A DNA stretch of 64,000 bases from Frankia casuarinae (GTDB lineage Bacteria; Actinomycetota; Actinomycetes; Frankiales; Frankiaceae): positions 434,001 through 498,000 of the forward strand of contig NC_007777.1 in NCBI RefSeq assembly GCF_000013345.1, given 5' to 3'. A program made the position numbers and the translations under genes. Every line of letters starts with the position of its first letter. Position 1 is the stretch's first letter. The notes beneath the pieces were generated by a model, which had not been told where the DNA came from, did no database searches, and saw only the letters and a program-made list of their open reading frames with translations. Positions 25,519-45,588 of this stretch are shown piece after piece.

Positions 25519-25758
25519 ATGGCGGAAGATCTTCTGGCGCTCGTCGTGGCCGACCCGACAGTCGGTCATGGGCAGGCGTGTATCCGGGGGACCCGGGTGC
25601 CGGTGAGTGTCGTGCTCGACTGCCTTGCCGACGGTATGTCCGACGGTGAGATCATCGCGGAGTACCCGTCGCTGACCGTGTCGGGGATCCGTGCGGCCGC
25701 TGCCTACGGGGCGCGTCTGGCGCGGGAGGATCTCGTGCCGCTTCGTACCGCGCCGTGA
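25519..25758 (+). CDS. DUF433 antitoxin
   Basis: 79 residues with the DUF433 (VapB-like) pattern: HGQACIRGTRVPVSVVLDCL, LADGMSDGEIIAEYPSLT, IRAAAAYGARLA. DUF433 proteins are usually the antitoxin upstream of a DUF5615 PIN-like toxin, as here: the next gene overlaps by 4 bp. The winged-helix part probably binds DNA and represses the pair. GGGAGG lies only a base or two before the chosen ATG, so a slightly different start is possible. Lies just inside the left att site. Confidence 0.82.
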   Translation: MAEDLLALVVADPTVGHGQACIRGTRVPVSVVLDCLADGMSDGEIIAEYPSLTVSGIRAAAAYGARLAREDLVPLRTAP

Positions 25759-26165
25759 AGGTCAAGCTGGACGAGGGTCTCCCGGTCTCCCTTGCCGAGC
25801 GACTCGCCAAGCACGGGATCGATGCCGATACCGTGCTTGCGGAGAACCTGTCGGGCCGCTCCGATCCGGAGGTGCTCGCTGCTGCGGTTGCCGAGAACCG
25901 GATCGTGTTCACCCTCGACCGCGGCTGCGGGAACATCCGTGCCTACCCGCCGGGATCGCTTCACTATCACCTCGTGACCTACAGAGGGCCGCGCCGTGAA
26001 GAGACATGCGCTCTGAACTGGCCGGACGTCGACCTCGACCAAAAGAAGATCCTCATCCAGTGGCAGCTCGTCGTCGTCGGCTGGAAGGTGCAGCGCACCA
26101 GGCCCAAGACCGACGCGGGAGTGCGGGAACTGCTCCTCGACGACCTCACTGTCGAGGAGTTCTAA
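25755..26165 (+). CDS. DUF5615 toxin fused to an integrase fragment
   Basis: 136 residues. Residues 1-72 match the DUF5615 PIN-like toxin (MKVKLDEGLPVSLAERL with an acidic residue early, DPEVLAAAVAENRIVFTLDRG). From about residue 74 the sequence switches to the catalytic domain of a tyrosine recombinase (GPRREETCALNWPDVDLDQ, then RPKTDAGVRELLLDD), which contributes its first catalytic Arg region. The toxin's own C-terminal third is missing. The open frame crosses the junction without a stop. The DUF433 gene overlaps it by 4 bp. Whether it still acts as a nuclease toxin is uncertain. Confidence 0.7.
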   Translation: MKVKLDEGLPVSLAERLAKHGIDADTVLAENLSGRSDPEVLAAAVAENRIVFTLDRGCGNIRAYPPGSLHYHLVTYRGPRREETCALNWPDVDLDQKKILIQWQLVVVGWKVQRTRPKTDAGVRELLLDDLTVEEF

Positions 26166-26758: not shown

Positions 26759-27151
26759 ATGGCCGCAACGCCCGCCCGGTGGACGATCAAGGCCACCTCC
26801 GAGGTGCGAGAGTGGCTGCGTTCGCTGCGCCGGGAGGAGCCGGACAGCTACCGATCCGTCAACGCGGCAATCGACATGCTCGCCGAGGCCGGGCCGGCGC
26901 TCGGGCGCCCGCTGGTCGACACCCTCAAGGGATCAACGATCAGCAACCTCAAGGAGCTCCGACCGCGGTCGGGCCGCGAGGTGGCCATCCGAGTGATCTT
27001 CGTGTTCGATCCATGGTCGCAGGCCGTGCTGCTGGTCGCGGGGAACAAGGCCGGCGACTGGTCGCACTGGTACAGGGCTGCGATTCCTGCGGCAGAGGTT
27101 GTCTACGACGGCTGGCTGGCCGTCGAACGGAAACGGCGGGAGGGCTCATGA
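26759..27151 (+). CDS. HigB/RelE-type toxin
   Basis: 130 residues with the Gp49/HigB-like pattern: AATSEVREWL-like N-terminus, LGRPLVDTLKGSTISNLKELR, then VAIRVIFVFDPWSQAVLLVAGNK and DWSHWYRAAIP. These match mRNA interferases of the RelE superfamily that cut mRNA on the ribosome. Gene order is toxin then antitoxin, typical of HigBA, with an ATGA overlap. The upstream 80 bp are A+T-rich (TTGAGCTATAGTTGAC) and probably carry the promoter. Confidence 0.85.
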   Translation: MAATPARWTIKATSEVREWLRSLRREEPDSYRSVNAAIDMLAEAGPALGRPLVDTLKGSTISNLKELRPRSGREVAIRVIFVFDPWSQAVLLVAGNKAGDWSHWYRAAIPAAEVVYDGWLAVERKRREGS

Positions 27152-28007: not shown

Positions 28008-29195
28008 ATGCTCCCGGACGTGACGATACCGGTTTCTCTGGCGGTGCTGCTGGAGGGTTTCCGGCCGTGTTTCACCGCGCCGTCGTTCCGGACGTTCCGG
28101 GCGCTCGTCGTGGGGATGCTCGCCACCGGCGGGCGGCGCACGGTGTGCGGGATGCTCGTCGGCGCGGGCCTGTCCACGCTGTGGCCGCACGACCGGGCGC
28201 ACCGGTTTTTCGCGCGGGCGGTCTGGTCGCCGGAGAAGGTCGGCCTGGCGCTCGCCCGGCTCGTCGTCGACCGCCTCGTCCCGGCCGGGCCGCTGCACGT
28301 CGTCGTCGATGACACCCTGTTCCACCGGGCGGGGAAGAAGGTGTGGGCGGTGGGCTGGTTCCACGACGGATCCGCGAAGGGGCCAGACCAGGTCGGGTTC
28401 GGCAACAACTGGGTGATCGTCGGCCTCGTCGTGCCGGCGCCGCTGCTCGGCCGGCCGGTCTGCCTGCCGGTCCTGGCCCGCCTGGTCCGCAAGGACACCG
28501 TCTCGGCCTCGCGGCTCTGGCTGGCCGCCCGCGCGGTCGAACAGCTGGCCGGGGCGTTCCCCGCCCGCCGGGTCCACGTCGTCGCGGATGCCGCCTACGC
28601 CGGCGACGAGCTCAGGGGACTGCCGGCCTCGGTGACCTGGACGACCCGGCTCCGCCGCGACGCCGCCCTGTTCGCCCCCGCCCCACCCCGCACCGGGAGA
28701 CGTGGCCGGCCCCGACTCAAGGGCGACCGGTTGCCCTCCCTCGCCCAGCTCGCCGCGGCCGCGACGTTCCGCCCGACGGCCGTGACCCGCTACGGCCGCG
28801 CCGGGACCGTGCACACGGCGGTCATCCGCTGCCTGTGGTACGGAGTGTTCGGCCCCCGCCCCGTCACCGTCGTCCTCGTCCGCGACACCGACCGGCCCGG
28901 GACCTACGACCTCGCGCTCGTCACGACCGACACCCTGACCAGGCCCGCCGAGCTCGTCGCCCGCTATGCGGCCCGCTGGTCGATCGAGGTCGCGATCGCG
29001 GACGCGAAGCAGATCTTCGGGGTCGGCCAGGCCCGCAACCGACTCACCGCCGCCGTCGAACGCACCGTCCCGTTCGGCCTGACCTGCCAGACCCTCGCCT
29101 TCGCCTGGTACCTCACCACCGGCCACCACCACGGCGACGCCGCCGACCACCGCGCCCGCACCCCCTGGCAGGGCCCCGGCAAAGTTGTCGGTTAG
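28008..29195 (+). CDS. IS701-family transposase
   Basis: DDE transposase of the IS701 type. From the ATG at 28008 the product starts MLPDVTIPVSLAVLLEGFRP and includes the first catalytic Asp region (HVVVDDTLFHRAGKKV), the second (VHVVADAAYAGDEL) and the Glu-containing RWSIEVAIADAKQIFG. The frame is open upstream to 27843 without conserved sequence. The usual C-terminal tail is replaced: the frame ends TPWQGPGKVVG just where the ISAs1-type element begins, so the 3' end of this transposon appears to have been cut by that insertion or by an earlier deletion. Confidence 0.85.
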   Translation: MLPDVTIPVSLAVLLEGFRPCFTAPSFRTFRALVVGMLATGGRRTVCGMLVGAGLSTLWPHDRAHRFFARAVWSPEKVGLALARLVVDRLVPAGPLHVVVDDTLFHRAGKKVWAVGWFHDGSAKGPDQVGFGNNWVIVGLVVPAPLLGRPVCLPVLARLVRKDTVSASRLWLAARAVEQLAGAFPARRVHVVADAAYAGDELRGLPASVTWTTRLRRDAALFAPAPPRTGRRGRPRLKGDRLPSLAQLAAAATFRPTAVTRYGRAGTVHTAVIRCLWYGVFGPRPVTVVLVRDTDRPGTYDLALVTTDTLTRPAELVARYAARWSIEVAIADAKQIFGVGQARNRLTAAVERTVPFGLTCQTLAFAWYLTTGHHHGDAADHRARTPWQGPGKVVG

Positions 29196-30520
29196 CAAGC
29201 AAGGCTCTTGATCGTCTCTAGTGGTCGTTCGGGGCGCCGCGCGTGGTGTCGGATTGCCTGGGCGATGTTCGTGGCGCCGGTCAGGCGAAGGATCGCGATC
29301 GCCAGGTTGCGCAGGCTGGCCATGACCTGGGGAGCGTGGCCGGTCCGGACCTGGCTGAGGTCCTCCCCGAAGGTGACGTCGCGGACCCAGTGCAGCCGGT
29401 TCTCCACGAGCCAGTGCTCGCGGGCGTAGGTGGCCAGCAGCGTGGGGCTGGCCTGGTGGGTCGGCAGGCTGGTGACAAGGTAGACGATCTCGGTCGTGGC
29501 CGGCCCGTCGGCGAGCGGCTGGCGGCGGCGGGTGACCTGCACTGCCTGCACGGCGTGCGGGAAGAGTAGTCCCGCGCGGACCTCGGTGGTCTTCACGGTG
29601 CGCCGCTCGCGGCGGCCGTGGCCGCGTTCGACGGTGCGCGCGGCGGTCTTCACCCGGCGCCAGGGCAGGGCGGCGAGCTGGGCGTATAGCGCCGGCTGGT
29701 TGGCCTTCACCGTCAGGATGTAGTGCGCATGCCGGCTGACCAGCCAGGATGCGGTCTGTCGCTGGGTGTGTAGAGCATCCGCGGTCACGATCACATCGGT
29801 CAGGTCCAGGTCGGCGAGCAGGACGGGCAGCGCCGGGATCTCGTTCGACTTCGCGTCGACGGCGACCTGGCCGAGCACGACACCGCTGGTGTGGTCGAGC
29901 GCGGCGAGCAGGTGGCGGCCCGGACTGTCAGGCGTGCGGGAGCCGCGCAGCGTCTTGCCGTCGACCGCGAGCCGCCGCCGCGTCCCGGCCGGCGGGGTGG
30001 TCGCCGCGGCGGCCCATGCTCCCAGCGCCGTATCCAGGGCGTCGGCGTCGAGTGCGGCGAGTACCCGGCGAAACGTCGACTCCTCGGGCACTCGAGAGAC
30101 GCCGAGCAGGCCCGCGACCGCCTGGCCGGCGTCGGCGGACCATTCACCGATCGCGGTGAACGACCGCGCCCCGGCGAGCACCGCGCAGGTCGCCAGCGTC
30201 AGCACAGCGGCCAGGCTGTGCCGCCTGCCGCGGGGCTTCCGGGGGTCCGGTAGCTGGTTGAAGACCGCCAGCAGACCCGCCGGCGACGGAGGCTGGTTGC
30301 CGGCGCCGACGGCAGCCAGCCGATCGAGAACAGGGGCAGGCGGTAATACTGGTGCGGCGGGCATGGCACCTCGAGACGATCATGACGGTGTAGGAACCTC
30401 CATGATCTCCAGGAGCCGTGCCCGCACCCATGACGCCCCCGGCCTCGCGTCAGAAGCGCGCTACGCAACACCACTGGAAGCCCCACACAACGCCGAAAGT
30501 CTGCTTACCAGCAAACTTGC
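29179..30520 (-). mobile_element. ISAs1-family insertion sequence
   Basis: Imperfect terminal inverted repeats are visible: GCAAAGTTGTCGGTTAGCAA at 29179 and, on the other strand, GCAAGTTTGCTGGTAAGCAG reading inward from 30520 (about 15 of 22 positions agree). The enclosed 1.34 kb contains one transposase gene. Target duplications are not clear, so the exact ends could be a few bases out. It abuts the truncated IS701 transposase on the left. Confidence 0.65.
29192..30364 (-). CDS. ISAs1-family transposase
   Basis: 390 residues, full length for the family. Hallmarks: N-terminal LLAVFNQLPDPRKPRGRRH and LATCAVLAGARSFTAIGEW, first Asp in LAVDGKTLRGSR, second in VIVTADALHTQ, and the Glu region REHWLVENRLHWVRDVTFGED. 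No frameshift, so the element could still be active. It reads toward the truncated IS701 gene and overlaps its last four bases. Confidence 0.93.
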   Translation of the reverse strand: MPAAPVLPPAPVLDRLAAVGAGNQPPSPAGLLAVFNQLPDPRKPRGRRHSLAAVLTLATCAVLAGARSFTAIGEWSADAGQAVAGLLGVSRVPEESTFRRVLAALDADALDTALGAWAAAATTPPAGTRRRLAVDGKTLRGSRTPDSPGRHLLAALDHTSGVVLGQVAVDAKSNEIPALPVLLADLDLTDVIVTADALHTQRQTASWLVSRHAHYILTVKANQPALYAQLAALPWRRVKTAARTVERGHGRRERRTVKTTEVRAGLLFPHAVQAVQVTRRRQPLADGPATTEIVYLVTSLPTHQASPTLLATYAREHWLVENRLHWVRDVTFGEDLSQVRTGHAPQVMASLRNLAIAILRLTGATNIAQAIRHHARRPERPLETIKSLAC

Positions 30521-30659
30521 TGAGGCCCTGCTGCTCACGTGCCGCGCGTGGCCGCGCGGGGAGCGGCTGACGCTCGTTCCCTGCCCCCACGTCCCCAGCT
30601 ACTTTGATCGCTCCCACTGCGCGAAGTGCGGTCACGAGCTGGGGAGCGTGGCCGCGTGA
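30521..30659 (+). pseudogene. Clipped zinc-finger-like ORF ahead of the serine recombinase
   Basis: The frame ends PCPHVPSYFDRSHCAKCGHE, with C-x2-H and C-x2-C pairs that could bind zinc. Its TGA overlaps the GTG start of the serine recombinase, a spacing typical of translational coupling. The 5' part has been replaced by the ISAs1 element, so only about 45 residues remain of what was probably a small accessory gene. Confidence 0.4.
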
Positions 30660-32224
30660 GGCCCGCCATCACGCTCTGGTCGGACAATCGGGACGCCGCG
30701 TACGGGTCTGGGGTGGTTCGCAAGCTGCGCACGATCGGTTACCGCCGGATCTCCGACGACCGTGAAGGGCTGGAAGCCGGGGTCACCCGCCAGGACGAGG
30801 ACATCCGCGAGCTTGCCGAACGGCGTGACGACGTCGACCTGATCGACGTGCTGACCGACAACGACCTGTCGGCCACGAAGGACTACCGGCCGGAGTTCGA
30901 ACGCATCCTCACCATGGCGCAGGCCGGCCAGATCGACGCGGTAATCGCGTGGACGTCGAACCGCTTCCTACGCAACCGGCCCGACCGGATGCGCGTGATC
31001 GAACTGTTCAAGGCCCGCAACGTCCGGCTGATCCCGGTCCGGGGCACCACCATGGACTTCACCTCCGCCGACGGCCGGATGATGGCCGACATCATCTTTT
31101 CGATCGACGCGGGAGAGGCCGAGCGCACGGCGGAGCGTGTCGCACGGGCAGCACAGCAGCGGGCCGAGCAGGGCCGCCACCACGGCGGACCCCGGGCGTA
31201 CGGCTACGGGCCGATCGTCGGCACCGACCACGCCGGCAAGCCCGTACGGGACTTCTACGCCCTCGTGCCGGACGAGGCGGCGGTTATCCGCCGCATCGCG
31301 GCCAACATCCTGGCGGGCGTGCCGTTGGCGGCGATCGCCCGCACGCTCAACGCCGAGGCGGTCCCGACCGTGACGAAGGCCCACCGGCCGATCTGCCCGA
31401 ACAACGTCAAGGGCCGTCGGGCGTGGACCGACTGCCCATGCCCGTACCGCGGGTGGAACGCGACCACCCTCAAGGAGATGATGGTCAACCCGCGTCTGAT
31501 CGGCATGCGCGGCTACCAGACCCGCAGCACGCGGCGCAGCACGGGAACCATCGCGGTCATGGGCCAAGCGGTGTGGCCGGCGATTCTGGACGTCGATACG
31601 TGGGAGCAGATCCGGGCGATCCTCACGGACGCCTCGCGGCGGACCAACACCAACGCGCAGAAGCTTCGGCGCATGCTGGCGGGGTTCGTCTACTGCGCCT
31701 CGTGCGGGCACAAGCTGACCGGGAACGGCACGAACGGGACGCGGCTCTACTGCCAGCGGCGTGACGGCCGCTGTCCGGCCAAGGTCCGAATCGGGGAAGC
31801 CTTCCTCGTCGGGCTGGTCTCCCGTGCCGTGCGGGGGCGTCTCGACGAGCTGGTTCTCCAGCCTGTGGCCATGGACGACCCGGCCGCCGCTGAGCTGGCG
31901 ACGTTGGAGGCCCGCAAGAGCGCGCTGGCGGACCGGTGGGCATCCGGGAAGATGGACGATGACGCCTACGACGATGCCCACAAGGCCATCGTCCGCCAGA
32001 TCCGCGCGGCCGAGGCCCGGATGCACACCAGCGCGCGACGGCGCGCCACGCTGCCCGTGGAGGGCGCCGTGGGCTGGGACGGGCTCGGCGAGGACATCGC
32101 GGCCAAGCGGGTGATCCTCACCCAACTGATCGACGGTGTGATCGTCGGCGGAAACGGGACTGTCGAGGGTGATGATGTTCAGCGTGTGCGGATCGTGTGG
32201 CGAGACCTGAACGACCCCCGGTAG
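30656..32224 (+). CDS. Large serine recombinase
   Basis: 522 residues. Resolvase domain at the N-terminus with the catalytic serine at position 33 (GYRRISDD), then DLSATKDYRPEFERIL, IAWTSNRFLRN and the arginine-rich DIIFSIDAGEAERTAERV. A recombinase domain follows (RAYGYGP, then VNPRLIGMRGYQTRS) and a zinc-ribbon domain (FVYCASCGHKLTGN, YCQRR) plus a coiled coil. This is the architecture of phage and ICE integrases. GTG at 30656 overlaps the preceding TGA; GGGGAG lies upstream. It suggests a second integration module inside the element. A palindromic terminator follows. Confidence 0.92.
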   Translation: MRPAITLWSDNRDAAYGSGVVRKLRTIGYRRISDDREGLEAGVTRQDEDIRELAERRDDVDLIDVLTDNDLSATKDYRPEFERILTMAQAGQIDAVIAWTSNRFLRNRPDRMRVIELFKARNVRLIPVRGTTMDFTSADGRMMADIIFSIDAGEAERTAERVARAAQQRAEQGRHHGGPRAYGYGPIVGTDHAGKPVRDFYALVPDEAAVIRRIAANILAGVPLAAIARTLNAEAVPTVTKAHRPICPNNVKGRRAWTDCPCPYRGWNATTLKEMMVNPRLIGMRGYQTRSTRRSTGTIAVMGQAVWPAILDVDTWEQIRAILTDASRRTNTNAQKLRRMLAGFVYCASCGHKLTGNGTNGTRLYCQRRDGRCPAKVRIGEAFLVGLVSRAVRGRLDELVLQPVAMDDPAAAELATLEARKSALADRWASGKMDDDAYDDAHKAIVRQIRAAEARMHTSARRRATLPVEGAVGWDGLGEDIAAKRVILTQLIDGVIVGGNGTVEGDDVQRVRIVWRDLNDPR

Positions 32225-32778: not shown

Positions 32779-33124
32779 GGTGTGGGTCGTAACGTGACGA
32801 TCGTGCCGGCCGGCCGGCCGGGCTGCGCTGCCCGACCGCCTCGCCAGGCGCTCAGCGGCCCGGTGCCGCAGGTCGGCAACGTCCGGGGTGCAGGTCATAA
32901 CGAAGGCCAGCGTCACGGGGCTCTCGCCCTTGCTGGTGCGGCCGGCACATCGTGCCAGCCGTGGCCGGGTGGGAACCGAAGGAGTTCCCGAAATCGGTAG
33001 CGACTCCGGGAGCGGTCCGGTAATCTTTCAGTCGCTGCCCGCAATCAACCAGAATCTGGGCTGCTTCGGCCTCGCTTATCGTCGCGGGCGCCACGGCTGA
33101 TGCTCACGGAAGGAGACCAGCGCA

Positions 33125-33244
33125 ATGACGCCACCGGATGACCTCGTCATCGTGGTAGAGGAGTTGGCCACGATCCAGGACCGCGGCGACTTTCAGACCT
33201 CTGATGGACCCGTCGGTGACAGCGGCGAGAACAGGGACGGCTAA
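33125..33244 (+). CDS. 39-residue acidic peptide, possible RiPP-type precursor
   Basis: Short ORF with a good AGGAG nine bases before its ATG. The product is very acidic (11 Asp/Glu), with a hydrophobic core DDLVIVVEELATIQ and a polar tail ending SDGPVGDSGENRDG; no Cys. It precedes, on the same strand, genes for an Fe/2-oxoglutarate oxygenase and an aldo/keto reductase. The leader-like first half and small polar tail recall precursor peptides such as the actinomycete FxLD type (L-x-I-x-V-V-E spacing), but cysteines are absent and I cannot show homology. It may equally be a regulatory peptide or a chance ORF. Confidence 0.45.
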   Translation: MTPPDDLVIVVEELATIQDRGDFQTSDGPVGDSGENRDG

Positions 33245-33355
33245 GCATCGACGTTAGCTGTCGCCGTACGACCCTGCCTCTCTTTCATCTGTTTCGGTTG
33301 GTTTTTCATGGCGATCTGGGTGCAGGCCGAAGGAGCCACCATGTAAAGGATGTTG

Positions 33356-34570
33356 ATGGATCATCAGCTCATCCGCGATATAAAGACCGCGTTGGCATGG
33401 TCCAGACCCAGCTCGACACCCTCCCGGTTCCTACGGGGGACTCTTCCTGATTCTGGGATATGCCCCAGGGTGCTCACGCCGACCAGATTTCTAGACCTGA
33501 TAATGAGACGAAGCCTTGTCTCGCCCCAGATGCGGTGCTTTCAAAACGAATCAGAGCTGCATCCAAACTCCTTGCTTCAGATGAACACGACGAGGCGAGG
33601 GCAGGTCACTCCGATGGTCGATATGCGCCGGCTGGCCGGACTTTTGCAATCAGGCTGCACCCTGGTGTTGGACGCGGTCAACCACTTTGATCCGACGCTA
33701 GAGGTTGCGTGCCGAGCGTTTCAATGGTGGTTGCGCGCGCCTGTGCAGGCGAACGTGTACCTCACAACGGGCGACGCGGCGGGTTTCTCCCTACACTGGG
33801 ATGATCACGACGTCATCGTCCTACAGTTAGCTGGCGACAAAGAGTGGGAGGTCCGGGGTCCGTCTCGCCGTGCTCCCATGTACCGCGACGCCGCACCCAA
33901 TACTGAGCCTCCCAAAGACATCGTGTGGTCTGGTACCGTGAATACCGGTGACGTGTTGTATATTCCCCGGGGCCACTGGCATCGGGCGAGCCGCACCAGC
34001 AGAGGTGACGGGTTTAGCCTTCATGCTACCTTTGGGTTCACGAGACGAACGGGCGTCGATTGGTTGGCTTGGCTTGCGGACCAGTCGCGCCGCGAAGAGG
34101 TGTTTCGGGAGGATCTGAATCAGCGGGGAGAAGACCCGAAAGAACATCAAAACGACGGCGAGAAAATTATTGTTGCCGCATCGCGTCTTCTTACGTCACA
34201 TCCGCCGGCCCATTACTTGGAATCCGTGGCGCATGCCACCTCCGCAGGCCGGTATGTCTCCACAGCCGGCATTTTTGGTCCGCCATCCGCGGTCGTGTGC
34301 GTTACTGATTTTCCACCTCAGATAGAGACCCAGGGCGATACAGTGGCGGTCGCGACGGCGGAGAAACGGATCGTCTTCACCAGGAAAGCATTACCAGCCC
34401 TTGGGTTGCTTCTGTCGGGCAATCCTGTGTGCCTTGACTACGTATCGTCCGCAGCGGGGATCGATGGCGCGCGCCTTGGGGAGATACTTGTCCGGGAGGG
34501 CATATGCGCGGAACTGACTCCGGAATTATTCTCGGGCTATACCGGTCTGACCACAGACGGCAAGCTTTAG
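33356..34570 (+). CDS. JmjC/cupin-type Fe(II)/2-oxoglutarate oxygenase
   Basis: 404 residues, similar to the ROX branch of JmjC proteins (ribosomal or peptide hydroxylases). Metal site: His147 and Asp149 in FSLHWDDHDV and a distal His in PRGHWHRA (His207 or His209). A typical LQLAGDKEWEV strand lies between them. A C-terminal winged-helix-like part (LGLLLSGNPVCLDYVSS) follows, as in ROX enzymes. Likely hydroxylates a peptide or protein side chain. The ATG at 33356 is preferred; ATG at 33350 is also possible, and a start-stop ATGTAA with its own GAAGGAG precedes both. Codon use is less G+C-rich than the window average, suggesting recent transfer. Confidence 0.8.
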   Translation: MDHQLIRDIKTALAWSRPSSTPSRFLRGTLPDSGICPRVLTPTRFLDLIMRRSLVSPQMRCFQNESELHPNSLLQMNTTRRGQVTPMVDMRRLAGLLQSGCTLVLDAVNHFDPTLEVACRAFQWWLRAPVQANVYLTTGDAAGFSLHWDDHDVIVLQLAGDKEWEVRGPSRRAPMYRDAAPNTEPPKDIVWSGTVNTGDVLYIPRGHWHRASRTSRGDGFSLHATFGFTRRTGVDWLAWLADQSRREEVFREDLNQRGEDPKEHQNDGEKIIVAASRLLTSHPPAHYLESVAHATSAGRYVSTAGIFGPPSAVVCVTDFPPQIETQGDTVAVATAEKRIVFTRKALPALGLLLSGNPVCLDYVSSAAGIDGARLGEILVREGICAELTPELFSGYTGLTTDGKL

Positions 34571-35370
34571 AGGATGCCCTTGCCGTTGGCATTCAATGCC
34601 TAGACACAAGCTACAACTATCATGGGTTCGACTCGCATCGCCTTCTCTCAAGCGTCGTGGGCGATTTACTTTCCATGTTCTCCATCTCGACGAAAGTCGG
34701 CTTCTTCCGAGAGTCCGGACGGGTAGTTCACACCCTCGCTCCCGGCCGGCTTCGCCGTGCGGTGGAGGAATCAGCGTGCGACCTTGGACGCATCCCGGAC
34801 GTCGTCTTTCTGCATAATCCTGAGAAGTCCCTTGTGGGAGTGAGCCCCGTACAAGCCCGTGAGCGCTTGGATGCGGCGTGCGCGGCGCTGTATGAAGCGG
34901 TAGCCATGGGTCTGTGCGCGTCGTGGGGAATATCGTCCTGGGATACGGCGCCGCTGATCCGGGCGCTTGACGGCGATCTCTTCGCGAAGGCTCCCACGCC
35001 AGACGTGCTCATGGTCCGCGCGGGGCTGACGGTGCCGTCTGACCAGCTCGACGCGAGCGAGCGGGCGGCGCAACGTCTGGGCGTCCCGTCCGATCGCCTG
35101 TGGGGGATGAGCCCGTTCGGCGGGGACGCCGCACGCGACGTCTGGAAGAGAATTAAGGCGGCCACCTTTCTTCAGCCAAACGAAGAAGGGTCAAATGTGC
35201 AAGCCGTCTTCCGCGTGTCATATGAGCTGCCAAGAGTAACGCGGATAGCCGTGAGTTCCGGCAGCACAGACCATATGAGGGAACTTGTGTCAGCCGAAGC
35301 GCTAAAGGTTGACCTAGACCAGATCGCTCGTTATCGGCAGCTCCTCCGTGAGAGAGGCGCTCACATCTGA
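34504..35370 (+). CDS. Aldo/keto reductase
   Basis: 288 residues of the AKR (beta/alpha)8 family. The catalytic tetrad is complete: Asp34 and Tyr39 (CLDTSYNY), Lys64 (ISTKVGFF) and His104 (VVFLHNPEKS). NADPH-dependent carbonyl reduction is expected. The start overlaps the oxygenase gene by 67 bp; the ATG is supported by GGGAGGG just upstream and by the conserved LGLYRSD start of the barrel. Such overlap implies co-translation with the oxygenase, so both probably act on one substrate. Its last ten bases overlap the end of the convergent kinase-like gene. Confidence 0.85.
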   Translation: MRGTDSGIILGLYRSDHRRQALEDALAVGIQCLDTSYNYHGFDSHRLLSSVVGDLLSMFSISTKVGFFRESGRVVHTLAPGRLRRAVEESACDLGRIPDVVFLHNPEKSLVGVSPVQARERLDAACAALYEAVAMGLCASWGISSWDTAPLIRALDGDLFAKAPTPDVLMVRAGLTVPSDQLDASERAAQRLGVPSDRLWGMSPFGGDAARDVWKRIKAATFLQPNEEGSNVQAVFRVSYELPRVTRIAVSSGSTDHMRELVSAEALKVDLDQIARYRQLLRERGAHI

Positions 35371-36251
35371 AGGTCTTTCACCAGCCTTTCGACAGCCTGA
35401 CATGCCGGCTCGTGAAGCGGCCCTGAATACGAGGCGGGCGCGCTGACAATGTCCGCGCACAGAAATAGCGTCATGATCTTACCTGTCTTGCTTTCCAGTT
35501 CCTCTCTGTACTCTCGGTAGATGCGGCTGGCGAGGTCGGGAATTGCCAGGCTGTTGACCCACAGGTTCGCTGGGTCCAATCCGCGCGGCGCCATTCCCCA
35601 GTCTTCCCAGTCAAGCAGCATACATTCTGGTGCCGTGAGATTCGCCCAATTTAGGTCGGCATGCGCGGCTGACCATTGCTCGATCCTAGTGTCGATCTTG
35701 CCGCCACAGGCCCGACTGATTGCCAGGTCCACCCGCGCTTGCGTTATTGTCTCGGTGTGAGGAGTAGCTAGCCGGGTGGTCGAATGCCCGGCAAGCGCGG
35801 CCAGCGAAGATCTCAGCGTCGCCCACCACGCCTCAGAAAGGTCGGGATCGGTAGTGAGGATACCACCGGGTTTAACGGGATGATCCGCGACGAAATCTGT
35901 CTCGTCAGCCCTCCACATGAGATCCTGGTCGGGATCGTTCCAAGAGACGCTTTGCCTCCAGACGGGCCGGGCCACGCCATGAAGCATCGATGAGGTCTCT
36001 GTTCCGTTCCATCCCTGACCGGTCATCTTCTCTGGAGATCGAACCTCAACACGGACCCAGGTTCCTCTATCGCTGGCGAGGCCAATTGAGCGTCGCTTCC
36101 GCACGACCGCGGTTCGGTCAAAGTGAACGTCTAGTGATCGCTCGACACGTTTCAAGACGTCGTTATAGGATCCCGACCTGAGATCCAATTTAGCGCGGAC
36201 GTTTGGCACGATGGAAACCCTATCTCTCTCGTCGCTCGGGCGGAGTGTCAC
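35361..36251 (-). CDS. Aminoglycoside phosphotransferase-like protein
   Basis: 296 residues. The C-terminal half shows the kinase-like signature: SAAHADLNWANLTAPE (catalytic-loop H-x-D-x-x-x-x-N) and CMLLDWEDWGMAPRGLDPANL (metal-binding D). The N-terminal ATP-binding lobe is short and poorly conserved. Members of this superfamily phosphorylate antibiotics, sugars or amino-acid derivatives; which one is unknown. It is convergent with the aldo/keto reductase and may belong functionally to the same lower-G+C cassette, for example as a self-protection or modifying kinase. Confidence 0.7.
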   Translation of the reverse strand: MTLRPSDERDRVSIVPNVRAKLDLRSGSYNDVLKRVERSLDVHFDRTAVVRKRRSIGLASDRGTWVRVEVRSPEKMTGQGWNGTETSSMLHGVARPVWRQSVSWNDPDQDLMWRADETDFVADHPVKPGGILTTDPDLSEAWWATLRSSLAALAGHSTTRLATPHTETITQARVDLAISRACGGKIDTRIEQWSAAHADLNWANLTAPECMLLDWEDWGMAPRGLDPANLWVNSLAIPDLASRIYREYREELESKTGKIMTLFLCADIVSAPASYSGPLHEPACQAVERLVKDLQM

Positions 36252-36345
36252 CCGTCCGCCTGCGTTCGAGCGCCACGCGGACGGGCAACAATAGTGAAGA
36301 CGTGTAAAATGCTATCTCGGCGCCCTGTGGACACCGTATCGGCTG

Positions 36346-36555
36346 TTAGGCCGTGAACTCTCCATCCGTCACACCACGCACGAACGCCGACCATTCCGCA
36401 CTGGTAAAGACCAGCGCAGGCCCGGTTCCATGGTCCTTGCTGTCCCGTAGGGCGACAAGGCCGCCGTCAAGGAATGCAACCTCGACACACTCACCCTTAG
36501 CGTTGCTGTAGCTACTCTTGCGCCACACCGCGCCGGAAAGATCGTGACTGTTCAT
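36346..36555 (-). CDS. DUF397 protein
   Basis: 69 residues with the complete DUF397 pattern: WRKSSYSNAKGECVEVAFLDGGLVALRDSKD (shown here only by its landmarks WRKSS, CVEVA and VALRDSKD) and the final FTSAEWSAFVRGV. Its start overlaps the stop of the upstream XRE gene. DUF397 proteins pair with WhiJ-type XRE regulators in streptomycetes and relatives and tune development and antibiotic genes; biochemical function is not settled. Confidence 0.9.
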   Translation of the reverse strand: MNSHDLSGAVWRKSSYSNAKGECVEVAFLDGGLVALRDSKDHGTGPALVFTSAEWSAFVRGVTDGEFTA

Positions 36556-37442
36556 GGTTCGAGACTCCTAGCTCGATCAATGAGCATCTTGGTGCTCGCG
36601 TCCCGCTCGGCCGCAGATTCCCACATCGCGCTGAACGACTCTTCGTATTGCTCTACCTCACGATCTTTCTCTAGATACAACGCTCCGGTAAGTCCCTCCA
36701 CGTAAACCGTTGGCGGTTCCCCCGCTCGTCCGGTTCCGTTCTCGGGAAACCGAAGAACGACGAACGGACCCGACGTGACGCCCGTGTGTAGGCCGGCACT
36801 GAACGGCATTACCTTGATCGTGACATTAGGCAGCCGGTTTACGTCCGCAATCCGTTCGAGTTGCTGTGCGAGCACCTTCGGGCCACCAACGGGGCGATGC
36901 AGAATCGACTCGCTGAGAACAACATTCAGGACCGGGGGATCGGTCACTCGGGTCAGCAACGCCTGCCGGGCCATGCGTACATGAACTCGCCGGTCTATTT
37001 CGTCGTTCTCGATATCGGGGTCTTCCGCTCGGATCAGGGTCCGTGCGTACTCCTCTGTTTGGAGGAGACCGGGAACGAGTTCCGCCTGGTAGCACCAGAG
37101 GCGAGAGGCTGCCTCTTCGAGCCCGATGTACAGGTCGAGCCAGGCCGGGATGACGTCGCCGTAGCTGTGCCACCAGCCGCGCGCCTTCGTCTCCTTCGCG
37201 AGCCCCATCAGCGCCTCGGTCAGGTCGGTGGGTGCACCGTAGATCCGGCACATGATCTCTACGTCAAAGCTCCGAAGCGAGGTCAGCCCCGACTCGATGC
37301 GCCAGATCTTGGCTTCGGACCACTCCAGGCGCCGTGCGGCTGCCCGCACGGTCAGCCTCGCCTGGTTTCGAAGATCGCGTAGGTACCGGCCGAGCTGGCG
37401 GCGCGGCACGGTCGAGCCCGTCGTCGTGCTGCCTTCTGGCAT
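36552..37442 (-). CDS. WhiJ-type XRE regulator with DUF5753
   Basis: 296 residues. Helix-turn-helix near residues 18-70 (RYLRDLRNQARLTVRAAAR, WSEAKIWRIESG), then the long DUF5753 domain (WHSYGDVIPAWLDLYIGLEE, YQAELVPGLLQTEEYAR, VLSESILHRPVG, LPNVTIKVMPFSAG). The ATG at 37442 has GGAGGGG upstream; longer starts lack it. Together with the co-transcribed DUF397 gene and the anti-sigma-like ATPase on the other strand (38130) it forms the familiar actinomycete WhiJ/DUF397/ATPase set, here as cargo of an integrated element. Confidence 0.9.
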   Translation of the reverse strand: MPEGSTTTGSTVPRRQLGRYLRDLRNQARLTVRAAARRLEWSEAKIWRIESGLTSLRSFDVEIMCRIYGAPTDLTEALMGLAKETKARGWWHSYGDVIPAWLDLYIGLEEAASRLWCYQAELVPGLLQTEEYARTLIRAEDPDIENDEIDRRVHVRMARQALLTRVTDPPVLNVVLSESILHRPVGGPKVLAQQLERIADVNRLPNVTIKVMPFSAGLHTGVTSGPFVVLRFPENGTGRAGEPPTVYVEGLTGALYLEKDREVEQYEESFSAMWESAAERDASTKMLIDRARSLEP

Positions 37443-37527
37443 CGCCCCTCCTTCGGTTTGAGGGTAGTCCATCACCCGAAATGAAAGACTCCGGTCGCTG
37501 TTTCGCAACAATATCAACATCTCTCAG

Positions 37528-45497: not shown

Positions 45498-45515
45498 GCC
45501 TGTCTCAACCGTGCG

Positions 45516-45588
45516 TGCGCTCGGAGGGACTCGAACCCCCAACCTTCTGATCCGTAGTCAGATGCTCTGTCCGTTGAGCTACGAGCGC
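45516..45588 (-). tRNA. tRNA-Arg (ACG)
   Basis: 73-nt cloverleaf on the minus strand: acceptor GCGCTCG/CGAGCGC, D arm with GCTC...GAGC, anticodon stem TCTGA/TCAGA around loop CTACGGA (anticodon ACG), T arm GGGGG-TTCGAGT-CCCTC and discriminator A. CCA is not encoded. ACG (read as ICG after deamination) is the main arginine tRNA for CGU/CGC/CGA. The gene remains intact although an element is integrated in its 3' part. Confidence 0.95.
45524..45558. repeat. Right attachment site within tRNA-Arg
   Basis: 35-bp core identical to 25293-25327, from the T-stem 3' strand to the anticodon loop. The tRNA 3' end faces the element, and the integrase is the nearest gene, the classic arrangement of actinomycete ICEs such as pSAM2. 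Confidence 0.9.

Follow-up and report, generated by a model that had tools for sequence, protein, structure and literature searches.

A four-gene cassette in the actinobacterium Frankia casuarinae probably encodes a biosynthetic pathway for a ribosomally synthesised and post-translationally modified peptide (RiPP), in which the core of a leader-held precursor would be hydroxylated by a JmjC-domain oxygenase, with an aldo/keto reductase (AKR) and a kinase acting afterwards. The cassette lies at positions 33125–36251 of a 64,000-nucleotide stretch (the window; assembly GCF_000013345.1, contig NC_007777.1, 434,001–498,000 of the forward strand) of a genome that consists of one contig of 5,433,628 bp, and all coordinates given here without a locus name are those of the window. 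A short predicted precursor gene stands beside genes for candidate modifying enzymes and is conserved as a peptide, the combination by which RiPP pathways are recognised, and we judge it very probable that this peptide is the substrate of the cassette. We infer the chemistry from the conservation of the peptide, its linkage with three enzymes, their intact active sites and their predicted folds.

The peptide gene and its linkage to the enzymes

The four open reading frames (ORFs) were confirmed at the positions of the original prediction. The peptide, MTPPDDLVIVVEELATIQDRGDFQTSDGPVGDSGENRDG, is encoded at 33125–33244 (+) as a member of a conserved family upstream of the JmjC gene, and the good ribosome site claimed for it is seen as a Shine-Dalgarno-like AAGGAG at 33110–33115 (+), 9 nt ahead of the ATG. 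Conservation and a structural model mark out a putative leader or recognition stretch at residues 6–20 (DLVIVVEELATIQDR; 33140–33184, +), and conservation marks a putative core at residues 26–39 (SDGPVGDSGENRDG; 33200–33241, +). The JmjC gene (33350–34570, +) overlaps the AKR gene (34504–35370, +) by exactly 67 bp (34504–34570), while the kinase gene (35361–36251, −) is convergent and overlaps the end of the AKR gene by 10 bp. The G+C fraction is 0.593 over 33100–36260 against 0.685 for the window, so that the overlap, the converging gene and the lower G+C content of the tract are all as originally described.

Relatives were collected by scanning GTDB genomes with a JmjC alignment, which gave 306 confirmed relatives; the best 80, all actinobacterial, were kept, so the counts favour close relatives, with 54 of the 80 coming from Streptomyces, and some loci are duplicates (L002 of L023, L003 of L075 and L014 of L042). 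A first profile, built from eight peptides of loci L001–L022 (L042 copies one of the seeds) and applied with no upper limit on ORF length, found a peptide ORF upstream of the JmjC gene in 80 of these 80 relatives (weakest E 0.017). Over all 102 loci the same profile matched 97 at E 0.017 or better, with no upstream match in L012, L013, L021 and L022 and merely E 2.2 in L011. In a stricter control with 10,804 six-frame ORFs of 20–250 residues, 77 of the 80 loci matched in the upstream place at E<1e-3 and 78 at E<1, the other two being among those detected by the first profile without a length limit, and elsewhere in the 80 loci there were zero matches at E<0.05. The original prediction had named loss of the peptide where the JmjC–AKR pair is conserved as the finding that would count against it; the peptide is present at every one of the 80 loci, and the comparison upholds the central claim of a precursor-like peptide linked to a JmjC oxygenase, an AKR and a kinase.

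All 81 distinct peptides have R20 and D27 (the Asp of an 'SD' motif), and 80 of them have a late Asp. Within type I, as we call the clade of the window's oxygenase, the N-terminal pattern LxxxVExLxxVxxR is conserved and the core varies in both length and sequence. The start codons of the 97 peptides were chosen partly by their Shine-Dalgarno sites, so the presence of such a site in 96 of the 97 carries no weight. Codon comparison of 20 Streptomyces copies gave 1438 synonymous and 943 non-synonymous changes among 2381 pairwise differences in codons 14–55 (40% non-synonymous against 74% expected for random single changes), 409 and 858 of 1267 in codons 1–13 (68%), and 676 against 89 in codons 37–51, a stretch selected after inspection of the table; the pairwise counts are non-independent, and one row is shifted by a residue, which inflates the non-synonymous counts. 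This pattern indicates constraint at the amino-acid level on codons 14–55 of these copies. Of its 39 codons, the window gene differs from each of two other Frankia copies at 9 synonymously and at 6 non-synonymously. A chance ORF is ruled out, because the peptide is conserved in sequence and position among relatives, and by the codon pattern.

The description of the peptide as Cys-free holds for most of the family, but 4 of the 97 type I peptides carry a Cys, three of them N-terminally and one in the core. Its supposed kinship with FxLD precursors was not borne out: besides this single Cys in a core, the window peptide matches no Pfam or NCBIfam family at E up to 1, and we take the NCBIfam library to include an FxLD model. 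Identity as an FxLD or lanthipeptide precursor was rejected on the NCBIfam result. Three other type I peptides likewise matched no NCBIfam family besides one spurious weak match. In the plasmid records examined, the peptide genes are annotated as 'hypothetical protein' or not at all.

A profile of 14 type I peptides was also run against 393 genomes of the class with the JmjC gene disregarded (E≤1e-3), and returned 25 places in 19 genomes. In 21 of them a JmjC place follows directly downstream; because the profile includes at least four of these 21 (the window, L014, L016 and L006), no more than 17 are new. Loci L156 and L158 hold the peptide, AKR and kinase genes in their usual order with no JmjC gene between them; each genome also has, at another place, a JmjC gene accompanied by its own peptide, and that enzyme might act in trans. 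A strict need for a local JmjC gene is ruled out by these two loci, and the company of peptide, AKR and kinase where JmjC is absent therefore ties the AKR and the kinase to the peptide itself. In the decayed cassette L157 (genome G032, contig C125) the peptide and kinase ORFs, 82% and 80% identical to those of the window, are both open, just a short piece from near the start of the JmjC gene is left, and an AKR was not found; the peptide has outlived the oxygenase. A place in genome G273 (E 5e-4) has no partner and no core, and is probably a chance match.

The oxygenase, the reductase and the kinase

The JmjC protein matches PF08007 (E 1.8e-21), and the genes of several relatives begin at the codon that corresponds to 33356. 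Its metal triad (H149, D151, H211) and K164, presumably the 2-oxoglutarate-binding Lys, are conserved in all 80 type I proteins, and the triad and Lys are intact in 37 of 37 type II–IV sequences examined. The model adopts the ribosomal oxygenase (ROX) fold over its full length, winged helix included, when compared with NO66 (Z 21.5, root-mean-square deviation (rmsd) 6.8, 369 aligned) and YcfD (Z 19.5, rmsd 4.5, 333 aligned). Family, fold and metal ligands together support the original assignment to the ROX type. The same likeness raises the alternative that the enzyme is an ordinary ROX acting on a ribosomal protein, with the small ORF a separate regulatory or small-protein gene, since its fold and Pfam family are those of NO66 and YcfD and the winged helix is common to both. 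We consider this very unlikely: peptide and JmjC are paired in four clades with clade-specific peptides, and the peptide remains with the AKR and kinase where the JmjC gene is absent. Furthermore, close JmjC relatives, which are also found on plasmids, are sporadic: among 393 genomes of the class, 15 give a match at E<1e-90 and 125 at E≤1e-10.

The C-terminal domain of the JmjC protein (34319–34495, +) consists of three strands followed by three helices (residues ~324–382 in a fused peptide–JmjC model, mean predicted local distance difference test (pLDDT) 80). This is the βββ-ααα winged-helix order that defines RiPP recognition elements (RREs) in PMC12710340, and the modelled domain has it. 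In the best of five fused models, residues 8–13 of the peptide form a strand (pLDDT ~61–66) whose pairing strand is not readable; the strand and the βββ-ααα domain would fit leader binding by strand addition. The ROXA-like winged helix PF20514 is recognised C-terminally in the type II relative L107 (E 4.3e-9) and not in the window protein.

Two other settings for the enzymes were dropped, phage cargo because a phage collection held no JmjC match, and a defence system because PADLOC gave nothing for the JmjC, AKR or kinase at E up to 0.01. One JmjC relative, L113 (genome G363), is in two pieces (matches 3–294 and 282–402, ~1.2 kb apart), and this copy may have been disrupted by an insertion.

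The AKR matches PF00248 above the cutoff (E 3.2e-13) and has an intact D34-Y39-K64-H104 tetrad. It is present in 74 of the 80 loci, missing from L074, L086, L087, L093, L098 and L100; among the 74 proteins D34, Y39 and K64 are kept in 73 and H104 in 74, the remaining row being gapped at three of the four positions. The kinase ORF has as its sole Pfam match PF01636 (APH), at E 0.21 and 11.7 bits against a gathering score of 23.2 that it does not reach, and the kinase of relative L108 passes that cutoff with 24.1 bits. Despite the score, the model (pLDDT 92) has the APH fold, with matches to APH(4)-Ia (Z 16.2, rmsd 4.4, 247 aligned), corramycin phosphotransferase (Z 13.6, rmsd 3.6, 237 aligned) and the lexapeptide kinase LxmK (Z 13.5, rmsd 3.7, 242 aligned). 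The catalytic pattern HxDxxxxN...D is present in the HADLNWAN and DWE motifs (H197, D199, N204, D214), kept in 80 of 80 loci, and the gene can be called kinase-like as first described. The kinase, present in all 80 loci, is the more constant partner than the AKR.

Whether the AKR acts on the same peptide is roughly an even call, and for the kinase too we put the chances at about half. A rival account accepts that the JmjC protein modifies the peptide but takes the kinase to be self-protection against, or inactivation of, the mature product rather than a biosynthetic step, and we rate it a serious contender at somewhat under even likelihood. It draws on the APH fold, on the antibiotic kinases and corramycin phosphotransferase among the matches listed, and on the position of the kinase as a separate converging gene in 70 of 80 loci; its presence at every one of the 80 type I loci, and among the type II genes that run on one strand, argues the other way, as does the class V lanthipeptide kinase LxmK, which shares the APH-like fold and therefore shows that RiPP kinases of such a fold exist.

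Related oxygenase clades and genomic setting

Four types are distinguished, each forming one side of a well-supported branch in a maximum-likelihood tree of 70 JmjC proteins; the type labels were assigned with knowledge of both peptide and JmjC similarity. By sequence, the four clades, each with its own Asp/Gly-rich peptide, follow the same logic. Type II is a distant clade in which, on Streptomyces plasmids, small ORF, JmjC, AKR and kinase genes all lie on the same strand. Plasmid records with a JmjC match number 131, of which 77 are from Streptomyces, many others are probably unrelated cupins and 12 from a set of 20 were examined. At nine type II loci, plasmid and genomic, the peptide (such as ...AARSRAEHEGDGGGTGRSDGND) was present in nine, the AKR in eight and the kinase in nine, and in the peptides of L159, L160 and L162 a type II core (SDGGSTGKGDLND) follows a leader that resembles type I (such as TVAVEEIAVVRSR).

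Type III comprises one family (f17), with a peptide such as MDPIEVEVEDLAEVTSRDITAGGDSDGTDSSSDFI in 13 of 13 loci examined. At the seven loci read over 13 kb, a prolyl oligopeptidase-like gene, plausibly encoding the leader peptidase, lies upstream in all seven (in pieces in L130), and a FhuF-like 2Fe-2S protein is encoded downstream in six, adjoining JmjC in three. In type IV a D-G-rich repeat ORF, with GEGTADGGSNPEGHDGGADGTAG repeated for example, stands upstream in L013 and in 14 of 14 weaker relatives, which were chosen from the far more numerous weaker JmjC places of the 393-genome search; the best 60-residue stretch upstream holds 6–15 DG pairs against 2–4 anywhere else per locus. A sucrase/ferredoxin-like gene adjoins JmjC in 13 of 15 type IV loci, L145 and L149 being without it. 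The Pfam assignments cover one of the type III oligopeptidases, two of the FhuF-like proteins and two of the sucrase/ferredoxin-like ones (PF06999), the other members being assigned by BLAST clustering. The Asp-rich ORFs of L011 and L012 fail the DG-pair count. In L012 an ORF of 103 residues at 1003–1314 (in the orientation of the JmjC gene, on the opposite strand of the locus) lies upstream of JmjC, with repeats like DSDSTQADPQGTDPAGSD, and is apparently another multi-core precursor type.

These partners bear on the fate of the product, for which a metal-binding or a signalling peptide is our first guess. That the core becomes a metal ligand, with hydroxylated Asp chelating iron or calcium, we regard as possible yet unlikely. 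The cores are rich in D-G and D-x-D-G, β-hydroxyaspartate is a known siderophore ligand, and the type III and IV loci have their 2Fe-2S partners; on the other hand, no uptake receptor or exporter was recognised, the FhuF-like gene adjoins JmjC in just three of the seven type III loci, and no such 2Fe-2S partner recurs in types I and II.

The possibility that the peptide, perhaps modified, is a signal sensed by neighbouring regulators arises from the surroundings of the cassette. A DUF397 protein (36346–36555, −) adjoins an XRE regulator with DUF5753 (36552–37520, −), and the pair is retained with the cassette in the Frankia loci L023 and L075 at identities of 86% and 91–92%. Cassettes on Frankia contigs have JmjC proteins 81–83% identical to that of the window. 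In addition, clustering of neighbouring ORFs of at least 110 residues gave as the commonest other neighbour a regulator-like ORF with TPR repeats, found upstream at 39 of 102 loci and usually on the other strand, a count with no background rate. Against this, such regulators are very common in actinobacteria, and we hold a signalling role to be rather improbable. In this clustering no further gene kept a constant position across most loci. The regulators and a serine hydrolase near many Streptomyces loci were excluded from the cassette parts, and their counts are raw, with no background rate. Type I and type II loci alike have regulator-like proteins encoded upstream, mostly in divergent orientation, with TPR repeats in L055 (2771–4123, −) and HTH_31 in L103 (1314–2621, −); L055, the one scanned member of the 39-locus cluster, had no HTH match.

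The original prediction placed the cassette in an integrative element, and this stands in part. A serine recombinase is encoded upstream (30626–32224), and a tyrosine integrase (PF00589; 43867–45396, +) adjoins a tRNA-Arg gene (45515–45588, −) that is likely the integration site of such an element. However, the recombinase is absent from beside the cassette in two other Frankia loci, L023 and L075, over the ~1.1 kb and ~5 kb, respectively, of upstream DNA covered. Directly upstream of the serine recombinase is a transposase with DDE_Tnp_1 and DDE_Tnp_1-associated domains (29192–30364, −), and a DUF5615 protein (25755–26165, +) and a Gp49-like (DUF891) protein (26759–27151, +) are possible toxin-antitoxin components.

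Proposed pathway and relation to known systems

We propose the following course of events. The ribosome would make a short precursor whose N-terminal part (LVIVVEELATIQDR) serves for recognition and whose Asp/Gly-rich C-terminal part (SDGPVGDSGENRDG) is the core. The JmjC protein, as an Fe(II)/2-oxoglutarate oxygenase, would bind the N-terminal part, probably by taking it up as an extra β-strand of the winged helix at its own C-terminus, and then hydroxylate one or more core residues; that it hydroxylates the core of this peptide is quite likely. The likeliest targets would be two Asp residues, the invariant one in the SD motif and the late one of a D(G) pair. Oxidation at Asp is suggested by the invariance of the former and by the recurrence of D-G in all four clades, and we hold Asp about as likely as not to be the target. 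The AKR, of NADPH type by family and an optional component, may then carry out a carbonyl/alcohol step on the oxidised core, and the APH-fold kinase could phosphorylate the new hydroxyl, either as maturation or as self-protection. The 2Fe-2S partners of types III and IV may hint at iron, and the prolyl oligopeptidase of type III at leader removal.

Several points weigh against this pathway. No modification has been observed. The kinase gene is on the opposite strand in 70 of the 80 loci and is therefore outside the same operon there, and L156 and L158 have no local JmjC gene. The peptide part of the fused model is of low confidence (ten-residue mean pLDDT 61, 66, 49 and 30) with no partner strand visible, the same winged helix occurs in ribosomal oxygenases, and a search with six of the C-terminal domains at E up to 10, under the HMMER filters that apply, did not list the PqqD family PF05402. 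At the plasmid locus L021, whose JmjC protein is 37% identical, the upstream ORF of 51 residues has neither motif nor profile match and no AKR or kinase was found. Among ORFs of at least 110 residues in flanks of 1.5–6 kb, no constant protease or exporter gene was found in type I loci.

Individual features of the cassette recur in a variety of characterised systems. One comes from calcium-dependent antibiotic biosynthesis, in which the Fe/2-oxoglutarate hydroxylase AsnO is followed by the kinase HasP, which phosphorylates the new Asx hydroxyl in a D-x-D-G-containing peptide; this hydroxylase-then-kinase order resembles the proposed JmjC–kinase pair, but that pathway is non-ribosomal and the likeness is one of description, not sequence. 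LxmK, from a class V lanthipeptide pathway, is a RiPP kinase of APH-like fold that works with the lyase LxmY to make dehydroamino acids, whereas no lyase was recognised in the present cassette. NO66, MINA53 and YcfD share the full-length fold, winged helix included, and the HxD...H metal triad; their substrates are ribosomal proteins, whereas the JmjC protein of the cassette is linked to a small peptide gene.

PMC12707348 and PMC12257519 describe BipG/BpmG, a JmjC ornithine hydroxylase of the biphenomycin RiPP pathway. Like the enzyme predicted here, BipG is a JmjC-domain Fe(II)/2-oxoglutarate hydroxylase acting on a ribosomal precursor; compared by description and not by sequence, it differs as a tailoring enzyme that works among MNIO and B12-rSAM enzymes on Orn, whereas the present cassette has an AKR, an APH-fold kinase and Asp/Gly-rich cores. 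JmjC hydroxylation of a RiPP precursor has therefore already been published (PMC12707348), and of the hydroxylation and carbonyl chemistry on a Cys-free core that the original prediction thought would be novel, the hydroxylation part is not new. Bregman et al. 2025 (PMC12710340) report, in the accessible portion, RRE–JmjC (PF08007) fusions and bacterial JmjC homologues in 'RiPP-like genomic contexts'; the same domain occurs there with a βββ-ααα domain, but that portion, compared by description, describes no gene set, precursor family, AKR or kinase. The oxygenases SmaO/SmaX of a graspetide cluster, as cited in PMC13097080, β-hydroxylate Asp of a ribosomal precursor and process it further, and are alike in acting on Asp of such a precursor; their cluster differs in including a graspetide synthetase, and again the likeness is by description, not sequence. 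The gene set and peptide families were not found described in the open-access full-text literature, a scope that leaves out most subscription papers. What is new here is the combination of JmjC, AKR and kinase together with its peptide families, JmjC hydroxylation in RiPPs being already known.

At its widest, the proposal would extend to an actinobacteria-wide RiPP class in which a ROX-type JmjC enzyme with its winged helix as leader binder makes β-hydroxyaspartate in Asp-Gly cores, sometimes in many tandem repeats, and phosphorylation (types I and II) or 2Fe-2S partners (types III and IV) make the products bind metals, as ribosomal equivalents of hydroxyaspartate siderophores and calcium-dependent antibiotics; we give this full picture little chance. 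If the peptides are substrates, they would constitute a family of small, mostly Cys-free precursors with hydroxylation by a single enzyme across many actinobacterial genera, and would add a tandem-repeat precursor type with oxygenase processing. The cassette would then show the recruitment of ribosomal oxygenases to peptide natural products, and the role of the ROX winged helix as a leader-binding domain would become directly testable.

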